Of a stretch of 64,000 nucleotides of DNA, positions 41,700 to 47,202 are shown piece after piece. Position 1 is the stretch's first letter. Each line of letters starts with the position of its first letter. Source of the DNA: a halophilic archaeon SHRA6 (GTDB lineage Archaea > Halobacteriota > Halobacteria > Halobacteriales > Haloferacaceae); the NCBI GenBank assembly GCA_005239175.1, contig ML241294.1, forward strand, positions 1 to 64,000, read 5' to 3'. The position numbers and the translations under genes were made by a program. Under the pieces are notes generated by a model. It had not been told where the DNA came from. It saw nothing but the letters and a program-made list of their open reading frames with translations, and made no database searches.

Positions 41700-42815
41700 A
41701 TGGAACCGACCAGACGCGGGGTGCTCTCGACTGCCGCGGCCGTACTCGTCGCGGGGTGTACCGCGCCGATCACGACACGTGAATCCGCAGATGCCACACA
41801 GTCGACGAGCAGTCCACCGACTGTTGGTGTCGAAAACGCATCACCCAGCGTCGCTTCAGAGGGATACGTCGATCTCTACGAGGCGACAGTTCCTGCCGTC
41901 GCACAGATCGAAACCACCGACGGCATGGGGCGAGGACAAGGATCGGGATTCCTCATCGATCCAGCCGACGTCGACGGTGCGGGCGATCGGCTACTCGTCA
42001 CGAATGATCACGTCATCCCTGAGGACGCAGACATTAACGTCACGTTTCACGAGGGCGCGTGGTACGAGGGTACGCTCGTCGGCCGGGATCCGTACAGCGA
42101 TCTCGCGGTGGTCAGGATCGACGGCGTGCCCGATGACGCAGTCTCGTTGTCGCTCGTCGATCGCGTTCCGCCAATTGGCGCGCCGGTGATCGCGATCGGC
42201 GCACCGCTCGATCTCCCGGAAACGATCACCCAGGGCGTAATAAGCGGTCGAAACCGATCGCTTCCGGGACCGCTCGGCTACTCGATCGCCGACACCGTGC
42301 AGACAGATGCAGCGCTGAATCCCGGCAACAGCGGCGGGCCGCTTCTCACAACCGACGGGCGGGTCGCCGGGGTCGTCTCGGCGACGAGCGGCGAGAACAT
42401 CGGCTTCGCCATCTCGGCGGCGTTGGCCCGCCGCGTCCTCCCCGCGTTGGCGACTGACGGCGACTATGACCACTCACGGCTTGGAATCAGGTCTGTCCCG
42501 GTCGATCCACAGCTCGCAGAACTCAACGATCTGCCGGATACCCGTGGGGTGATGGTCGTCGAGGTTCCTGATGATGGCCCGTCCGCCGGGATGTTACAGG
42601 GCGCTCCCGAGTCAGAAACGGTCAACGGGACAAGCTACCCGATCGGCGGCGACGTAATTCGCCGGCTGGATGATACGCCGATCGTCGACCAGTCGTCGTT
42701 GTCACGGTATCTCGCACTCGAAACGTCGCCCGGCGATCGGGTCGACGTGACTGTCCGCCGTGACGGCCAAGAAGTCGTCGAGACGGTCACCCTCGGTCGG
42801 CGGCCCGATCCGTGA
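41700..42815 (+). CDS. HtrA/DegP-like serine protease, Tat lipoprotein
   Basis: The 371-residue protein starts with a twin-arginine signal (PTRRGVLSTAAAVLVAGC) ending in a lipobox with Cys20, so it is probably exported folded and anchored by lipid on the cell surface. The trypsin-like domain has the triad His104 (TNDHVI), Asp134 (SDLAVV) and Ser211 (NPGNSGGPL). A PDZ domain follows from about residue 255 (GIRSVPVDPQLAEL through GDVIRRLDDTPI). It is likely a cell-envelope quality-control protease. Confidence 0.93.
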   Translation: MEPTRRGVLSTAAAVLVAGCTAPITTRESADATQSTSSPPTVGVENASPSVASEGYVDLYEATVPAVAQIETTDGMGRGQGSGFLIDPADVDGAGDRLLVTNDHVIPEDADINVTFHEGAWYEGTLVGRDPYSDLAVVRIDGVPDDAVSLSLVDRVPPIGAPVIAIGAPLDLPETITQGVISGRNRSLPGPLGYSIADTVQTDAALNPGNSGGPLLTTDGRVAGVVSATSGENIGFAISAALARRVLPALATDGDYDHSRLGIRSVPVDPQLAELNDLPDTRGVMVVEVPDDGPSAGMLQGAPESETVNGTSYPIGGDVIRRLDDTPIVDQSSLSRYLALETSPGDRVDVTVRRDGQEVVETVTLGRRPDP

Positions 42816-43444: not shown

Positions 43445-43957
43445 TCAGTGGCCGTCGGGTTCGTGTTCGGGATCTTCGCGGGTGTCAAGCGCGTGTTCAT
43501 GGCTAGCGTCGGCGTCGTCGGTGTCCTGGACGTCGATCGTCGATGGCGGGCGACCGGCGGCGTCCAACACATCCTGAGAGATTACGATCGGACAGTCGAT
43601 CCGGACCGCGATGGCGAGCGCGTCACTCGGACGCGCGTCGAACGTGAACGGCTCGGGCTCGCCGTCTTCGTATCGTTCGGCAGTCACCTTTGCGAAGAAC
43701 GTTCCATCTGCGAGGTCGTCGATCCGGACGCTGTCGATCGCACCGCCGAACTCCGTTACCATTTCCACCAGCAAGTCGTGCGTGAGCGGTCGTTCGAAGG
43801 TCTGACGCTCAAGTGCGAGCTGGATTGACTGTGCCTGATCGTCAGTGATGAAGATCGGGACGTACTCGTTTTGGGCTTCGAGGATCACCGCAGGGACGCT
43901 CGCGCCGTCTGGACCGACACCCATACCGATTCCCTCGATGCGGGCCGTATGTTCCAT
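43445..43957 (-). CDS. DUF151 (bifunctional nuclease-like) protein
   Basis: The 170-residue protein matches the BFN/DUF151 family: VPIFITDDQAQSIQLALERQ, RPLTHDLLVEMVTEFGGAID and FDARPSDALAIAVRIDCPIV. Plant and Thermotoga members are reported to cleave nucleic acids, but the activity of archaeal members is not established. The last 30 residues are acidic and unordered. The ATG at 43957 was preferred over a GTG two codons upstream. Confidence 0.88.
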   Translation of the reverse strand: MEHTARIEGIGMGVGPDGASVPAVILEAQNEYVPIFITDDQAQSIQLALERQTFERPLTHDLLVEMVTEFGGAIDSVRIDDLADGTFFAKVTAERYEDGEPEPFTFDARPSDALAIAVRIDCPIVISQDVLDAAGRPPSTIDVQDTDDADASHEHALDTREDPEHEPDGH

Positions 43958-44029
43958 GTTCACACATATATGGTGGAGGTATGAATAGCTGTTCCTCTAG
44001 GCGCATCGCCAGTGGCGATCTCGCGAGGC

Positions 44030-44746
44030 TTACAGATTTCCAGCGCGGTACCACACGGCGAACCCGACGAGTAGCACACAGAGTCCGCCGAGAAAGAACG
44101 CTGCTCCGGGTTCGAGGCTGACGATCGCGTCGATCGCGTCTGTGACTGCGGCACCGAGGAAATCGACGATCTGCTCGAGCACGCCCGGTTCGTCAGCGGC
44201 TGCCGCATCCGCGTCCATTGCGGCATCGTCGCCGGCACTGTCAGCCTGTTCGGTCTCTTCAGCGGTCATCGCTCCAGCGTCACCACCGCTGGTCTGTGCA
44301 GCCTGCTGGGTTCCAGCCCATCGTTGGATCAATAGGCTCACCACGCCGAGGAGGCCGACGGCCCCGAGCAGGCTCATGAGCGTCTCTTTGATACCAGTCC
44401 GATCGGACTCTGCGGCAGCGAACAACACGAGCGGTTCGTCAGCGGGCGCGTAGACGTTCATTTCACGGCCCTTTTCAGAGTAGACCGTATCGACGACCTC
44501 GACCAGCTCAGCGGCCTCGAGTTTTTTGATGTGGTACTGGACGTTTTGGAGCGTGGTGTCGACCCGATCGGCGAGTTCGGCCGGGGTGTCCGGGCGATCG
44601 TGGAGTGCGTGAAGGACGGTTCGAGCGGTTTCCGATGAGAGGGCGTTGATGACCGAGTCCGCATCCTCGCTGTCGAGACCGACAACGCGAGGCTCCTCGT
44701 TCGTCGCCGGCGGCACGTCGGAGAGGGAGGGCAGGAGCTTCGCCAT
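44030..44746 (-). CDS. Membrane-anchored ArsR-type HTH regulator
   Basis: The 238-residue protein has an N-terminal winged helix (about 28-100: SVINALSSETARTVLHALHD, TPAELADRVDTTLQNVQYHI). It is followed by a membrane helix at about 121-141 (ETLMSLLGAVGLLGVVSLLI), a very acidic Ala/Glu/Asp-rich loop at 145-188, and a second helix at about 214-233 (GAAFFLGGLCVLLVGFAVWY). The topology predicts a cytoplasmic DNA-binding domain tethered to the membrane with an external loop. The start at 44746 precedes this HTH; longer frames upstream overlap the divergent promoter. It is divergent, with a 135-bp gap, from the TraB and M50 protease genes. Confidence 0.85.
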   Translation of the reverse strand: MAKLLPSLSDVPPATNEEPRVVGLDSEDADSVINALSSETARTVLHALHDRPDTPAELADRVDTTLQNVQYHIKKLEAAELVEVVDTVYSEKGREMNVYAPADEPLVLFAAAESDRTGIKETLMSLLGAVGLLGVVSLLIQRWAGTQQAAQTSGGDAGAMTAEETEQADSAGDDAAMDADAAAADEPGVLEQIVDFLGAAVTDAIDAIVSLEPGAAFFLGGLCVLLVGFAVWYRAGNL

Positions 44747-44881
44747 ATCGCCATAGAGTGGCCCGCAGACGTACAAATCTTCTGTTTTCGCGTCTGTGTA
44801 GTATGTAAAGACGGAGACGGCCATGAGTAGCTGCGATCGCAGTTCGACACAAGTAAACGGCGAGACTGTGTAGCTGGCCCA

Positions 44882-46576
44882 ATGAGTACGCCCGCGGACA
44901 CGACAACCGCCAAGCCGGACGGAGCCGGCAGCGTTACTGTCGTCGGCACCGCACACGTCTCCCAACAGAGCGTCGATGAGGTGAAATCGGCGATCGGCGA
45001 GGAGTCACCCGACATCGTCGCCGTCGAGCTTGATGAGGGTCGCTATCGGCAGATGCAGGGCGAAGAGCCAGAGGATCTGAACGCGAGCGATCTGCTCAGC
45101 GGCAATACAGTGTTTCAGTTCCTCGCCTACTGGATGCTCTCGTACGTCCAGACCCGCCTGGGCGAGCGCTTCGACGTCCAACCCGGTGCGGACATGCTCG
45201 CGGCAATCGAAACCGCCGAAGCGCACGGAATCGACGTTGCACTCGTCGATCGAGACATCCAAGAGACGATCCAGCGCTTCTGGGCGCGGATGACCCTCCT
45301 CGAGAAGCTTCGAATGATCGGCGGCTTAGCGTTCGGAATTACCGATCGGCGGGTCGTCGGTATCATGGTCGGATTGATCCTCGGATTGCTCGCCGGACCG
45401 GGAATCGCGATCTTCGGCGGGACACTCGGGATCTCAAGTGCCTTGCTGACGAGTGTGACTGGCGGCCTCCTGCTGGGTGGCGCCGTTGCGATCGCCGTCG
45501 ATACCCTCGGCGGCGCGTTTCTCTCGGGTGACGATCGCCTCTACGCGGCGATCGCGAGCGGAGTCGGCGTTGGCATCGTTGGTGGCGTTGGGTTCGGGCT
45601 CGCCGATGGGATCGTAACTCGATTTCTCGGCGACTTTGTGATCACCGTGCTCGGCAGCCTCACGCTGGGTATCGCTGCTGGCGTCGCAGTCGGCGTGCTC
45701 GCAGCCGGCCTGATCGGGCTCCGTGGCCCGACCGAAGCCGAACACGGCGGAATCGACGATCTGGACATCGACGAGCTCACCGACGCCGACGTGGTGACGA
45801 TGATGATGGAGGAGTTCCGCCAGTTCAGCCCGGGCGGAGCCGAAGCGCTCATTGACGAGCGCGACGCCTACATCGCCCACCAGCTCGTCGGATTGCGCAA
45901 AGCAGGGTATAACGTCCTGGCGGTCGTCGGCGCAGGCCACCGCGAGGGGATCGAAGGGTATCTCGCCGAATCGACATCCCTACCGCCGATGGAATCGATC
46001 ACGGGGACCGAGCGAGGACGTGGGATTCCGTGGGGCAAGCTCATCGCATACGGTATCTCGATCGCGCTCATTTCGTTTTTTATCCTGTTGGCGATGGCCG
46101 GCGTCAGGAACGGCTTCCTCCTGCGACTGTTCGGCGCGTGGTTCCTCATCAACGCAGTGTTCGCTGCTGGGCTCGCGAAGCTCGCAGGCGCACGCTGGAG
46201 CTCGGCGGGCGTTGGCGGTGCGGTCGCGTGGATGACCTCGATCAACCCGCTTTTGGCACCGGGGTGGTTCACCGGCTACCTCGAGCTTCGACACCTTTCT
46301 GTCAACATCGGCGACATCTCGACGCTCAACGAGCTGTTGTCCGACGAGACCCGTCCAGTCGGTGATATTCTCTCGGACATGTTCGACGTCCCGCTGTTCA
46401 AGCTCATCATGATCGTTGCGCTTACCAACGTCGGCAGCATCATCGCGAGTGTCTTGTTTGTAACGTATGTGTTGCCGCTGTTTGCGGCCGATCTCGGCGG
46501 CATCGAGGGCGTCTCGCAATTGATGATTGACGGAGCGAGAAACAGTGCCGAACTTATCTGGGGGCTGGTGCGATGA
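44882..46576 (+). CDS. TraB family polytopic membrane protein
   Basis: The 564-residue protein begins with a TraB domain: SVTVVGTAHVSQQSVDEVKS, with the family's G-x-x-H at residues 22-25, and DIVAVELDEGRYRQM. This domain is split: about six hydrophobic segments occur at roughly 150-275 (for example GIMVGLILGLLAGPGIAIFG), then TraB-type motifs resume with [15 protein letters not shown] and VLAVVGAGHREGIEGYL, and a second membrane block closes the protein. TraB/PrgY proteins limit peptide pheromones in enterococci, and the related TIKI proteins are metalloproteases. Its stop overlaps the M50 gene by four bases. Confidence 0.88.
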   Translation: MSTPADTTTAKPDGAGSVTVVGTAHVSQQSVDEVKSAIGEESPDIVAVELDEGRYRQMQGEEPEDLNASDLLSGNTVFQFLAYWMLSYVQTRLGERFDVQPGADMLAAIETAEAHGIDVALVDRDIQETIQRFWARMTLLEKLRMIGGLAFGITDRRVVGIMVGLILGLLAGPGIAIFGGTLGISSALLTSVTGGLLLGGAVAIAVDTLGGAFLSGDDRLYAAIASGVGVGIVGGVGFGLADGIVTRFLGDFVITVLGSLTLGIAAGVAVGVLAAGLIGLRGPTEAEHGGIDDLDIDELTDADVVTMMMEEFRQFSPGGAEALIDERDAYIAHQLVGLRKAGYNVLAVVGAGHREGIEGYLAESTSLPPMESITGTERGRGIPWGKLIAYGISIALISFFILLAMAGVRNGFLLRLFGAWFLINAVFAAGLAKLAGARWSSAGVGGAVAWMTSINPLLAPGWFTGYLELRHLSVNIGDISTLNELLSDETRPVGDILSDMFDVPLFKLIMIVALTNVGSIIASVLFVTYVLPLFAADLGGIEGVSQLMIDGARNSAELIWGLVR

Positions 46577-47202
46577 GCGGTGGACACACCATCGCTGGCT
46601 ACCAGTTCAGCAATTCGGAGCTCAAAGACCTCGCGATCGCGTGGGTCGCGCTCGGCCTCGCGTTCGCGCTGTTTTTCGGCGGCGGCGCAGGCGCGATCGG
46701 GTCGATCATCGCGGGACCGCTGCTGTTTGTGAGCCTGCTCACCGCGGGTGTCGCATTCCTCTTGCACGAGGTGGCGCACAAAGTCGTCGCAGTTCGATTC
46801 GGCCAGACTGCGGCGTTCCGCGCTGACTACAGCATGTTGTTTCTCGCAATCATGAGTGCGATGTTGGGGTTCATTTTCGCCGCTCCTGGCGCGGTTCACC
46901 ACCGAGGGTACATCACCCAGCGTGAGAACGGCATCATCGCGATCGCTGGCCCGGTGACGAACCTCGTGCTTGCGGTCATCTTTGTCCCAGTGTTCCTCGT
47001 TGGCTCTTCGATCGGTGGCATCATCGGGCAGATCGGTGCCTACGGCCTCGTGATCAACCTCTTTTTAGCGGCGTTCAACATGATCCCGTACGGCCCACTG
47101 GACGGCAAGACGGTGCTCACGTGGAGCAAACTCATCTGGGCCGCGGTGTTTGTTCCGAGCGTGATCGCGACGCTGCTTGCACTTTCGACGATCGGCCTCT
47201 AG
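46573..47202 (+). CDS. Site-2 type (M50) membrane metalloprotease
   Basis: The 209-residue integral membrane protein has the zinc motif HEVAHK (residues 65-70) within a hydrophobic helix and the distal NMIPYGPLDGKT (169-180), whose Asp177 is the third zinc ligand in site-2 proteases. At least five membrane helices are visible, and GPVTNLVLAVIF is a usual companion motif. No PDZ or CBS domain is present. It would cleave other proteins inside the membrane. Overlap of its start with the TraB stop indicates translational coupling. Confidence 0.92.
   Translation: MSGGHTIAGYQFSNSELKDLAIAWVALGLAFALFFGGGAGAIGSIIAGPLLFVSLLTAGVAFLLHEVAHKVVAVRFGQTAAFRADYSMLFLAIMSAMLGFIFAAPGAVHHRGYITQRENGIIAIAGPVTNLVLAVIFVPVFLVGSSIGGIIGQIGAYGLVINLFLAAFNMIPYGPLDGKTVLTWSKLIWAAVFVPSVIATLLALSTIGL

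Follow-up and report, generated by a model that had tools for sequence, protein, structure and literature searches.

In regulated intramembrane proteolysis, as in the RseA-DegS-RseP and SREBP pathways, a protease of family M50 acts together with a membrane-tethered regulator. Enterococci offer another setting for such a protease: the membrane metalloproteinase Eep releases a pheromone, and its degradation, extracellularly, is attributed tentatively to PrgY, a TraB homologue (PMC7117660). Four site-2 protease (S2P) homologues of Haloferax volcanii have been tabulated with function unknown (PMC9263693), and we found no description of a natural role for mjS2P-type proteases in the literature searched. 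The structure of a TIKI-family endopeptidase shows a 2His/2Glu catalytic set in a metal-independent enzyme (PMC6254334), and ArnR and ArnR1 of Sulfolobus acidocaldarius combine an N-terminal helix-turn-helix (HTH) domain with two C-terminal transmembrane (TM) segments (PMC6396743). Here we analyse a stretch of 64,000 nucleotides from the halophilic archaeon SHRA6 (contig ML241294.1; hereafter the window), in which a gene for a TraB/PrgY family membrane protein is followed by one for a small M50 protease and faced by a divergent gene for a membrane-tethered HTH protein. An initial annotation had proposed that the three form a release system, in which TraB performs or governs a first event in the external loop of the HTH protein, and the HTH domain, freed by the M50 enzyme, then acts on its own divergent promoter. 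Our analysis mostly does not support that system; instead, the functional unit is probably TraB and the M50 protease.

Results

TraB and M50 form a recurrent gene pair

The window belongs to an assembly of 3.36 Mb in 5 contigs, and the closest named record to its protease is that of Halalkalirubrum salinum (protease identity 99%). The two genes and their principal motifs are as follows.

44882..46576, + strand: TraB/PrgY family membrane protein, 564 amino acids (TIGR00261 and PF01963; fold matches; TM segments)
44954..44956, + strand: TraB His25 in a GTAH motif, first His of the 2His/2Glu set by analogy (173 of 173 aligned sequences with a letter there)
45026..45028, + strand: TraB Glu49 in an AVELD motif (172 of 172 aligned sequences)
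45857..45859, + strand: TraB Glu326 in a DERD motif, second-Glu role by analogy (174 of 175 aligned sequences)
45938..45940, + strand: TraB His353 in a GAGH motif, second His by analogy (174 of 174 aligned sequences)
46573..47202, + strand: small M50 site-2 protease, 209 amino acids (PF02163; AlphaFold model resembling 3b4r, SpoIVFB and RseP)
46765..46779, + strand: M50 HEVAH zinc motif (H65, E66 and H69 invariant in 28 aligned sequences)
47077..47106, + strand: M50 NMIPYGPLDG second zinc motif (N169, P172, G174, D177 and G178 invariant in 28 aligned sequences)

Both genes lie on the + strand, and the stop codon of TraB overlaps the start of the protease gene (ATGA). A search with the protease among haloarchaea returned 169 loci, of which 80 were kept (the named loci). 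In all 80, TraB lies directly upstream of the protease gene on the same strand, with a gap below 100 nt in 76 and a median of about 21 nt (starts being approximated). The small M50 protease was found in every one of 145 haloarchaeal genomes sampled from the class (52 from the family of the window and 93 from others), and of 120 genomes sampled from the phylum Halobacteriota, 119 matched the TraB model TIGR00261.

Outside the haloarchaea, M50 genes adjoined TraB at 25 of 30 loci in an initial sample. The full set of TraB surroundings covers 97 of the 101 non-haloarchaeal phylum genomes; G160, G202, G218 and G237 were left out, and in G202 the coordinates place a small M50 gene next to TraB. An M50 gene abuts TraB in 56 of the 97 genomes, from 11 of 20 families, lying upstream only in 40, on both sides in 15 and downstream only in 1, with none in 41. 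The window genome has three further M50 genes above the Pfam cut-off and one weak match, from which we roughly estimate that TraB would have an M50 neighbour by chance in <1% of genomes. Strong among haloarchaea, the association is seen again in roughly half of the remaining phylum genomes, and the initial annotation was right to place TraB and M50 together. We found no report of the pairing in archaea in the literature searched, most subscription journals lying outside its coverage. We infer that TraB and the protease probably work together.

Two types of M50 gene flank TraB. The upstream type, defined by a model built from 11 members, carried CBS domains in both members tested (Pfam), and the one compared with PDB sequences matched MJ0392 (3b4r, E 8e-43). 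The small type was found in 71 of the 120 phylum genomes at E 1e-10, with the 19 haloarchaea among them. At L153, L157, L172, L224 and other loci (15 of 97 genomes) an M50-CBS gene, TraB and a small M50 gene stand in a row. The simplest history is probably that such a row was the ancestral operon and that one or both sides were lost by lineage. No TraB-M50 fusion was found in the non-haloarchaeal loci. One open reading frame (ORF) at L063 (9167-10627) matches both models, within a TraB gene that extends over more than one frame; it could reflect a frameshift or a fusion and was not counted as a fusion.

Anatomy of the M50 protease

PF02163 is the only Pfam match of the window protease (32.4 bits, cut-off 27.2), with no PDZ or CBS domain matched. 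Its zinc motifs are complete, as the initial annotation had read them (HEVAH at residues 65-69, NMIPYGPLDG at 169-178), and these HExxH and NxxPxxPLDG-type motifs place it in family M50; the 28 aligned sequences listed above include that of the window. A search of PDB sequences gave three weak, irrelevant matches. The AlphaFold model is of high confidence (predicted local distance difference test, pLDDT, 91.6), and Foldseek ranked 3b4r and two SpoIVFB entries as its top three (probability 1.00, E 0.01-0.035; none at 0.001). In a second comparison 3b4r, SpoIVFB and RseP scored Z 7.7-9.2 (128-140 residues aligned), with an unrelated designed protein ranking above them and a caution from the tool for Z <13 in helical folds. 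The model thus points to a fold like that of solved S2Ps.

The presence of the protease in all 145 class genomes would also suit membrane-protein quality control, in which M50 and TraB together dispose of membrane proteins that are damaged or mis-inserted, and peptide clearance plays no part. The near-overlap of the two genes suggests matched amounts of their products, and HVO_1555, which we presume from its gene number only to be the orthologue, is reported to be upregulated by perchlorate together with other proteases and chaperones (PMC12175516). However, the presumed target of the enterococcal relative is a small peptide, and we regard quality control as rather unlikely.

Anatomy and predicted topology of TraB

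The window TraB scores 262 bits against TIGR00261 (cut-off 178) and 106 bits against PF01963. Searched against plasmid records it gave 428 matches, 421 of them in Enterococcus, with up to 35.7% identity over 125 amino acids (E 1e-15); among the 40 matches listed, most of the annotated ones are named TraB. We aligned 175 sequences (78 haloarchaeal, 97 other) after dropping haloarchaeal L032, L073 and L015, sequences that were truncated or had no readable motif; some members are contig-end fragments, hence denominators below 175. H25, E49, E326 and H353 are essentially invariant. Their assignment to a 2His/2Glu set was made by analogy to the TIKI-family structure (PMC6254334) and not by superposition. 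Since that endopeptidase is described as metal-independent, 'metal-binding' may be the wrong term for the TraB residues.

The protein consists of a TIKI-like domain, into which a bundle of some four TM segments is inserted, followed by a C-terminal membrane part. The bundle (45362-45715, + strand) is nearly absent in haloarchaeal L055 and L076, and the hydropathy profile of non-haloarchaeal TraB shows no inserted TM segments. Polar residues of the C-terminal membrane part are near-invariant (E468 in 162/162, N516 in 162/163, D478 in 159/164). These residues, and the pairing of TraB with two M50 types, would fit a TraB that is no enzyme but a regulator or adaptor of M50, gating substrate access through its C-terminal membrane part for example. 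Conservation of the 2His/2Glu residues across 172-175 sequences suggests catalysis instead, and we consider a purely regulatory TraB unlikely.

Ahead of the first C-terminal TM segment, lysine plus arginine (K+R) averages 3.5 per 15 residues in non-haloarchaea and 3.1 in haloarchaea; in the next loop it falls to 0.3 in both groups. From this charge pattern, and because no signal peptide was seen by eye, the 2His/2Glu domain is predicted to be cytosolic. A later loop, with K+R of 6.0 in non-haloarchaea, contradicts a simple topology count; to accommodate it, the third hydrophobic stretch of the C-terminal part would have to be re-entrant, and its helices are indeed broken in the model, which hints at this. 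The initial annotation had cast TraB as maker or controller of the first event in the external loop of the HTH protein, and had named a lack of metal-binding residues on the loop side as counting against its model. Such a lack is what the topology predicts: with its catalytic domain on the opposite, cytosolic side, TraB would be wrongly placed to cut the loop.

The divergent HTH gene and its linkage

The features on the other side of TraB are these.

44030..44746, - strand: HTH protein, membrane-tethered winged helix of the HVO_1552 family, 238 amino acids (PF12840 and PF24267; linkage counts below)
44747..44881, unstranded: divergent intergenic region, 135 bp (promoter-like boxes separate for each gene; no shared palindrome seen)
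43445..43963, - strand: gene with a bifunctional nuclease (BFN) domain, 3' of the HTH gene and co-directional with it (PF02577; kept beside HTH in several genomes)
41700-42815, + strand: HtrA-like protein with trypsin-like and PDZ domains (Trypsin_2, PDZ_2)

ORF coordinates confirm the first annotation of the three genes with respect to strand, to the divergent gap of 135 bp and to the overlap at ATGA; the genes are real and correctly read, but the interpretation was centred on the wrong partner. The HTH protein carries PF12840 (HTH_20, E 4e-14) and the C-terminal region PF24267 (HVO_1552_C, E 1e-18, residues 109-234), which places it in the HVO_1552 family. PDB sequences gave no match to it at E 0.001 and none to TraB at E 1, and PADLOC matched it to Csa3/CARF regulators only, with nothing for TraB or M50. 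HVO_1552, unlike HVO_1555, was not mentioned in the literature searched. Mean hydropathy over 40 aligned HTH sequences marks TM segments at 122-140 (weak) and 214-232, separated by 73 residues with K+R of 1.5 and aspartate plus glutamate of 11.5. The two TM segments and the acidic stretch of the initial annotation thus stand, whereas its loop of about 45 residues was too short.

Support for release of this protein by M50 comes from the presence of all three genes, divergent and 135 bp apart, and from the first TM segment, which is weakly hydrophobic and has the HTH domain on its inner side, as would suit an S2P substrate. Linkage tells otherwise. PF24267 is present in 139 of the 145 class genomes, leaving 6 that have the protease but no match; a position is listed for 120, and 19 fall outside the matches listed. 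In the family of the window the HTH gene lies ≤6 kb from the protease gene in at least 35 of 52 genomes, against 0 of 93 in other families among the matches listed (22 of the 93 being without a position); in one of the 93 the distance is 7.9 kb, and in another three it is about 17 kb. Among the matches listed, linkage is therefore confined to one family. The initial annotation had named merely sporadic adjacency of the HTH gene as counting against its model, and sporadic is what the gene is outside that family.

The named loci, for which counts rest on phmmer, tblastn having missed the HTH gene of L025, agree. An HTH orthologue occurs within the flank examined in 39 of 80 (L015, L024, L073 and L077, with <1 kb upstream of TraB, were unable to show one). 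It is immediately divergent from TraB in 31 loci (L017 included), which favours the release model, and lies 1.5-2 kb away in 8 of the 39. A gene on the HTH strand intervenes in all six of these eight that were inspected; DUF4147 and MOFRL domains were matched in the one tested, which is presumably of glycerate-kinase type. BFN is also present in 36 of the 39 HTH-bearing loci and occurs without HTH in 12 more, and in Halonotius and Halohasta it adjoins TraB with no HTH gene in the flank examined. We fetched 20 loci around listed PF24267 matches away from the protease, 11 from the family of the window and 9 from others. Five of the 11 have BFN next to HTH and lack TraB; because of this, the HTH-TraB neighbourhood looks like slowly decaying synteny. 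The remaining 6 family loci and the 9 from other families have neither BFN nor TraB within about 6 kb of HTH.

HTH and BFN, being co-directional neighbours, might form a unit of their own. Among the non-haloarchaeal loci, only two weak matches to the HTH model (E 2.6e-4) were found beside TraB, at L127 (2704-3207) and L213 (5447-5950); both belong to genome G240, which has no M50 gene adjacent to TraB.

Promoter comparison, from which L017 was omitted for want of a recognised start, likewise separates the two genes. Halorubrum-type loci have a conserved box at HTH (CAACARATTTGTAT) and another at TraB (CACAAACCCTAAAC), which look like two separate core promoters. A box similar to that at HTH is also found at the unlinked HTH genes of L235 and L236. 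At TraB, a CCGACACTGGTAAAA-like box is present both where HTH is missing, as in Halonotius, Halohasta and relatives of Natrialba, and where HTH is 1.6 kb away, such as L025. The same kind of TraB box thus does not depend on an HTH neighbour, and the HTH and TraB promoters showed no element in common; a shared divergent operator was accordingly rejected. The Halorubrum-type TraB box is unlike that of other haloarchaea, a point in favour of the release model, and a lineage-specific link may exist in these loci. Taken together with the predicted cytosolic position of the TraB catalytic domain, these data make cleavage of the HTH protein by a TraB-M50 relay very unlikely.

The HtrA-like protein could in principle be the site-1 protease for HTH, with M50 as site-2, as in the sigma-E pathway. 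Its Trypsin_2 and PDZ_2 domains, its position about 1.2 kb from the HTH gene and an N-terminus with a twin-arginine and a lipobox-like stretch, which we take to indicate a lipoprotein, would fit. Yet HtrA occurs in 10 of the 80 named loci, and only L005, the nearest relative of the window, also has HTH; such a role is scarcely credible. On linkage we rejected both HtrA as site-1 protease and HTH as an obligatory third member. The HTH protein is probably a lineage-specific neighbour outside the TraB-M50 unit, best read, by analogy, as an independent membrane-tethered one-component regulator of ArnR-like layout. It may have a functional link to TraB-M50 in trans, and may be cleaved in trans by the window M50 or by another S2P.

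Discussion

We hypothesise, with about an even chance of being right, that the M50 protease releases membrane peptides and that TraB disposes of them or limits them. The protease would cut TM segments near the cytosolic face, whether in signal-peptide remnants or in the anchors of damaged or already clipped membrane proteins. TraB, as a TIKI-like hydrolase on the cytosolic side of the same membrane, would bind and destroy the released hydrophobic peptides, or limit them. The pair would then serve as a housekeeping counterpart, encoded on the chromosome, of enterococcal Eep (M50) and PrgY/TraB acting on pheromone peptides.

Several points weigh against this proposal. Adjacency suggests a shared pathway and not a chemistry, and the literature searched yielded no assay of peptidase activity for TraB proteins of this class. 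TraB has no abutting M50 gene in 41 of the 97 non-haloarchaeal genomes, 28 of which carry a small M50 gene elsewhere, and next to the TraB gene of a Bacillaceae plasmid no M50 is annotated. Natural transformation of Methanococcus maripaludis was unaffected by loss of its TraB-like protein; a separate M50 gene was among the hits of the same transformation screen (PMC10133366). The presumed site of PrgY action is extracellular, whereas the archaeal domain is predicted inside. Moreover, the AlphaFold model of TraB is of moderate confidence (pLDDT 73), and Foldseek returned no match to it at E 0.001 or better. A second structural comparison gave Z 8.8 over 139 residues for ChaN, 6.0 for EreC and 5.7 for BcR135, the latter two within the range (Z <8) where the tool cautions that a common arrangement may be responsible; none of the three is among the 50 best Foldseek matches listed. 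The model thereby lends moderate support to a ChaN/Ere-like fold.

The best fold match of TraB residues 11-366 is chain E of Tetrahymena mitochondrial complex IV (7w5z, Z 13.1), and a TraB-like protein may be built into that respiratory complex.

Extended to the whole phylum, peptide release and clearance would be the task of the ancestral M50-CBS, TraB, small M50 operon, with Eep-PrgY a repurposed or parallel version and TraB the missing partner of mjS2P-type proteases; this we offer tentatively, as possible but doubtful. If true, it would connect membrane proteolysis in archaea with peptide signalling in bacteria, and the wide occurrence of TraB in the phylum (119/120 genomes) would become easier to understand. 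A conserved TraB partner provides a direct handle on the function of archaeal S2P homologues, and the pairing corrects a tempting, weaker reading of the neighbouring HTH protein as the substrate.

How, then, does the locus compare with known systems? Like RseA-DegS-RseP and SREBP, it has an M50 protease and a membrane-tethered regulator close together; unlike them, its regulator is not conserved beside the protease and no linked site-1 protease has been shown. The regulator shares the layout of ArnR and ArnR1 but has a long acidic inter-TM loop and no HAMP domain in a Pfam scan. Fold matches and the putative 2His/2Glu residues connect the window TraB with the TIKI/Ere/ChaN superfamily. Animal TIKI acts extracellularly, whereas the window TraB is a multi-pass membrane protein with its domain predicted to be cytosolic. 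MJ0392 (mjS2P), a CBS site-2 protease, is of the same type as the M50 found upstream of TraB in other phylum genomes, and its fold is resembled by the model of the small window protease, which differs in having no matched CBS domain and in lying downstream of TraB. A close parallel is Eep-PrgY/TraB, where a homologous TraB domain and an M50 protease belong to one peptide pathway, and both kinds of protein are present here. In enterococci PrgY/TraB is plasmid-borne and Eep is encoded elsewhere (ef2380; PMC7117660), whereas in archaea the TraB and M50 genes stand side by side.

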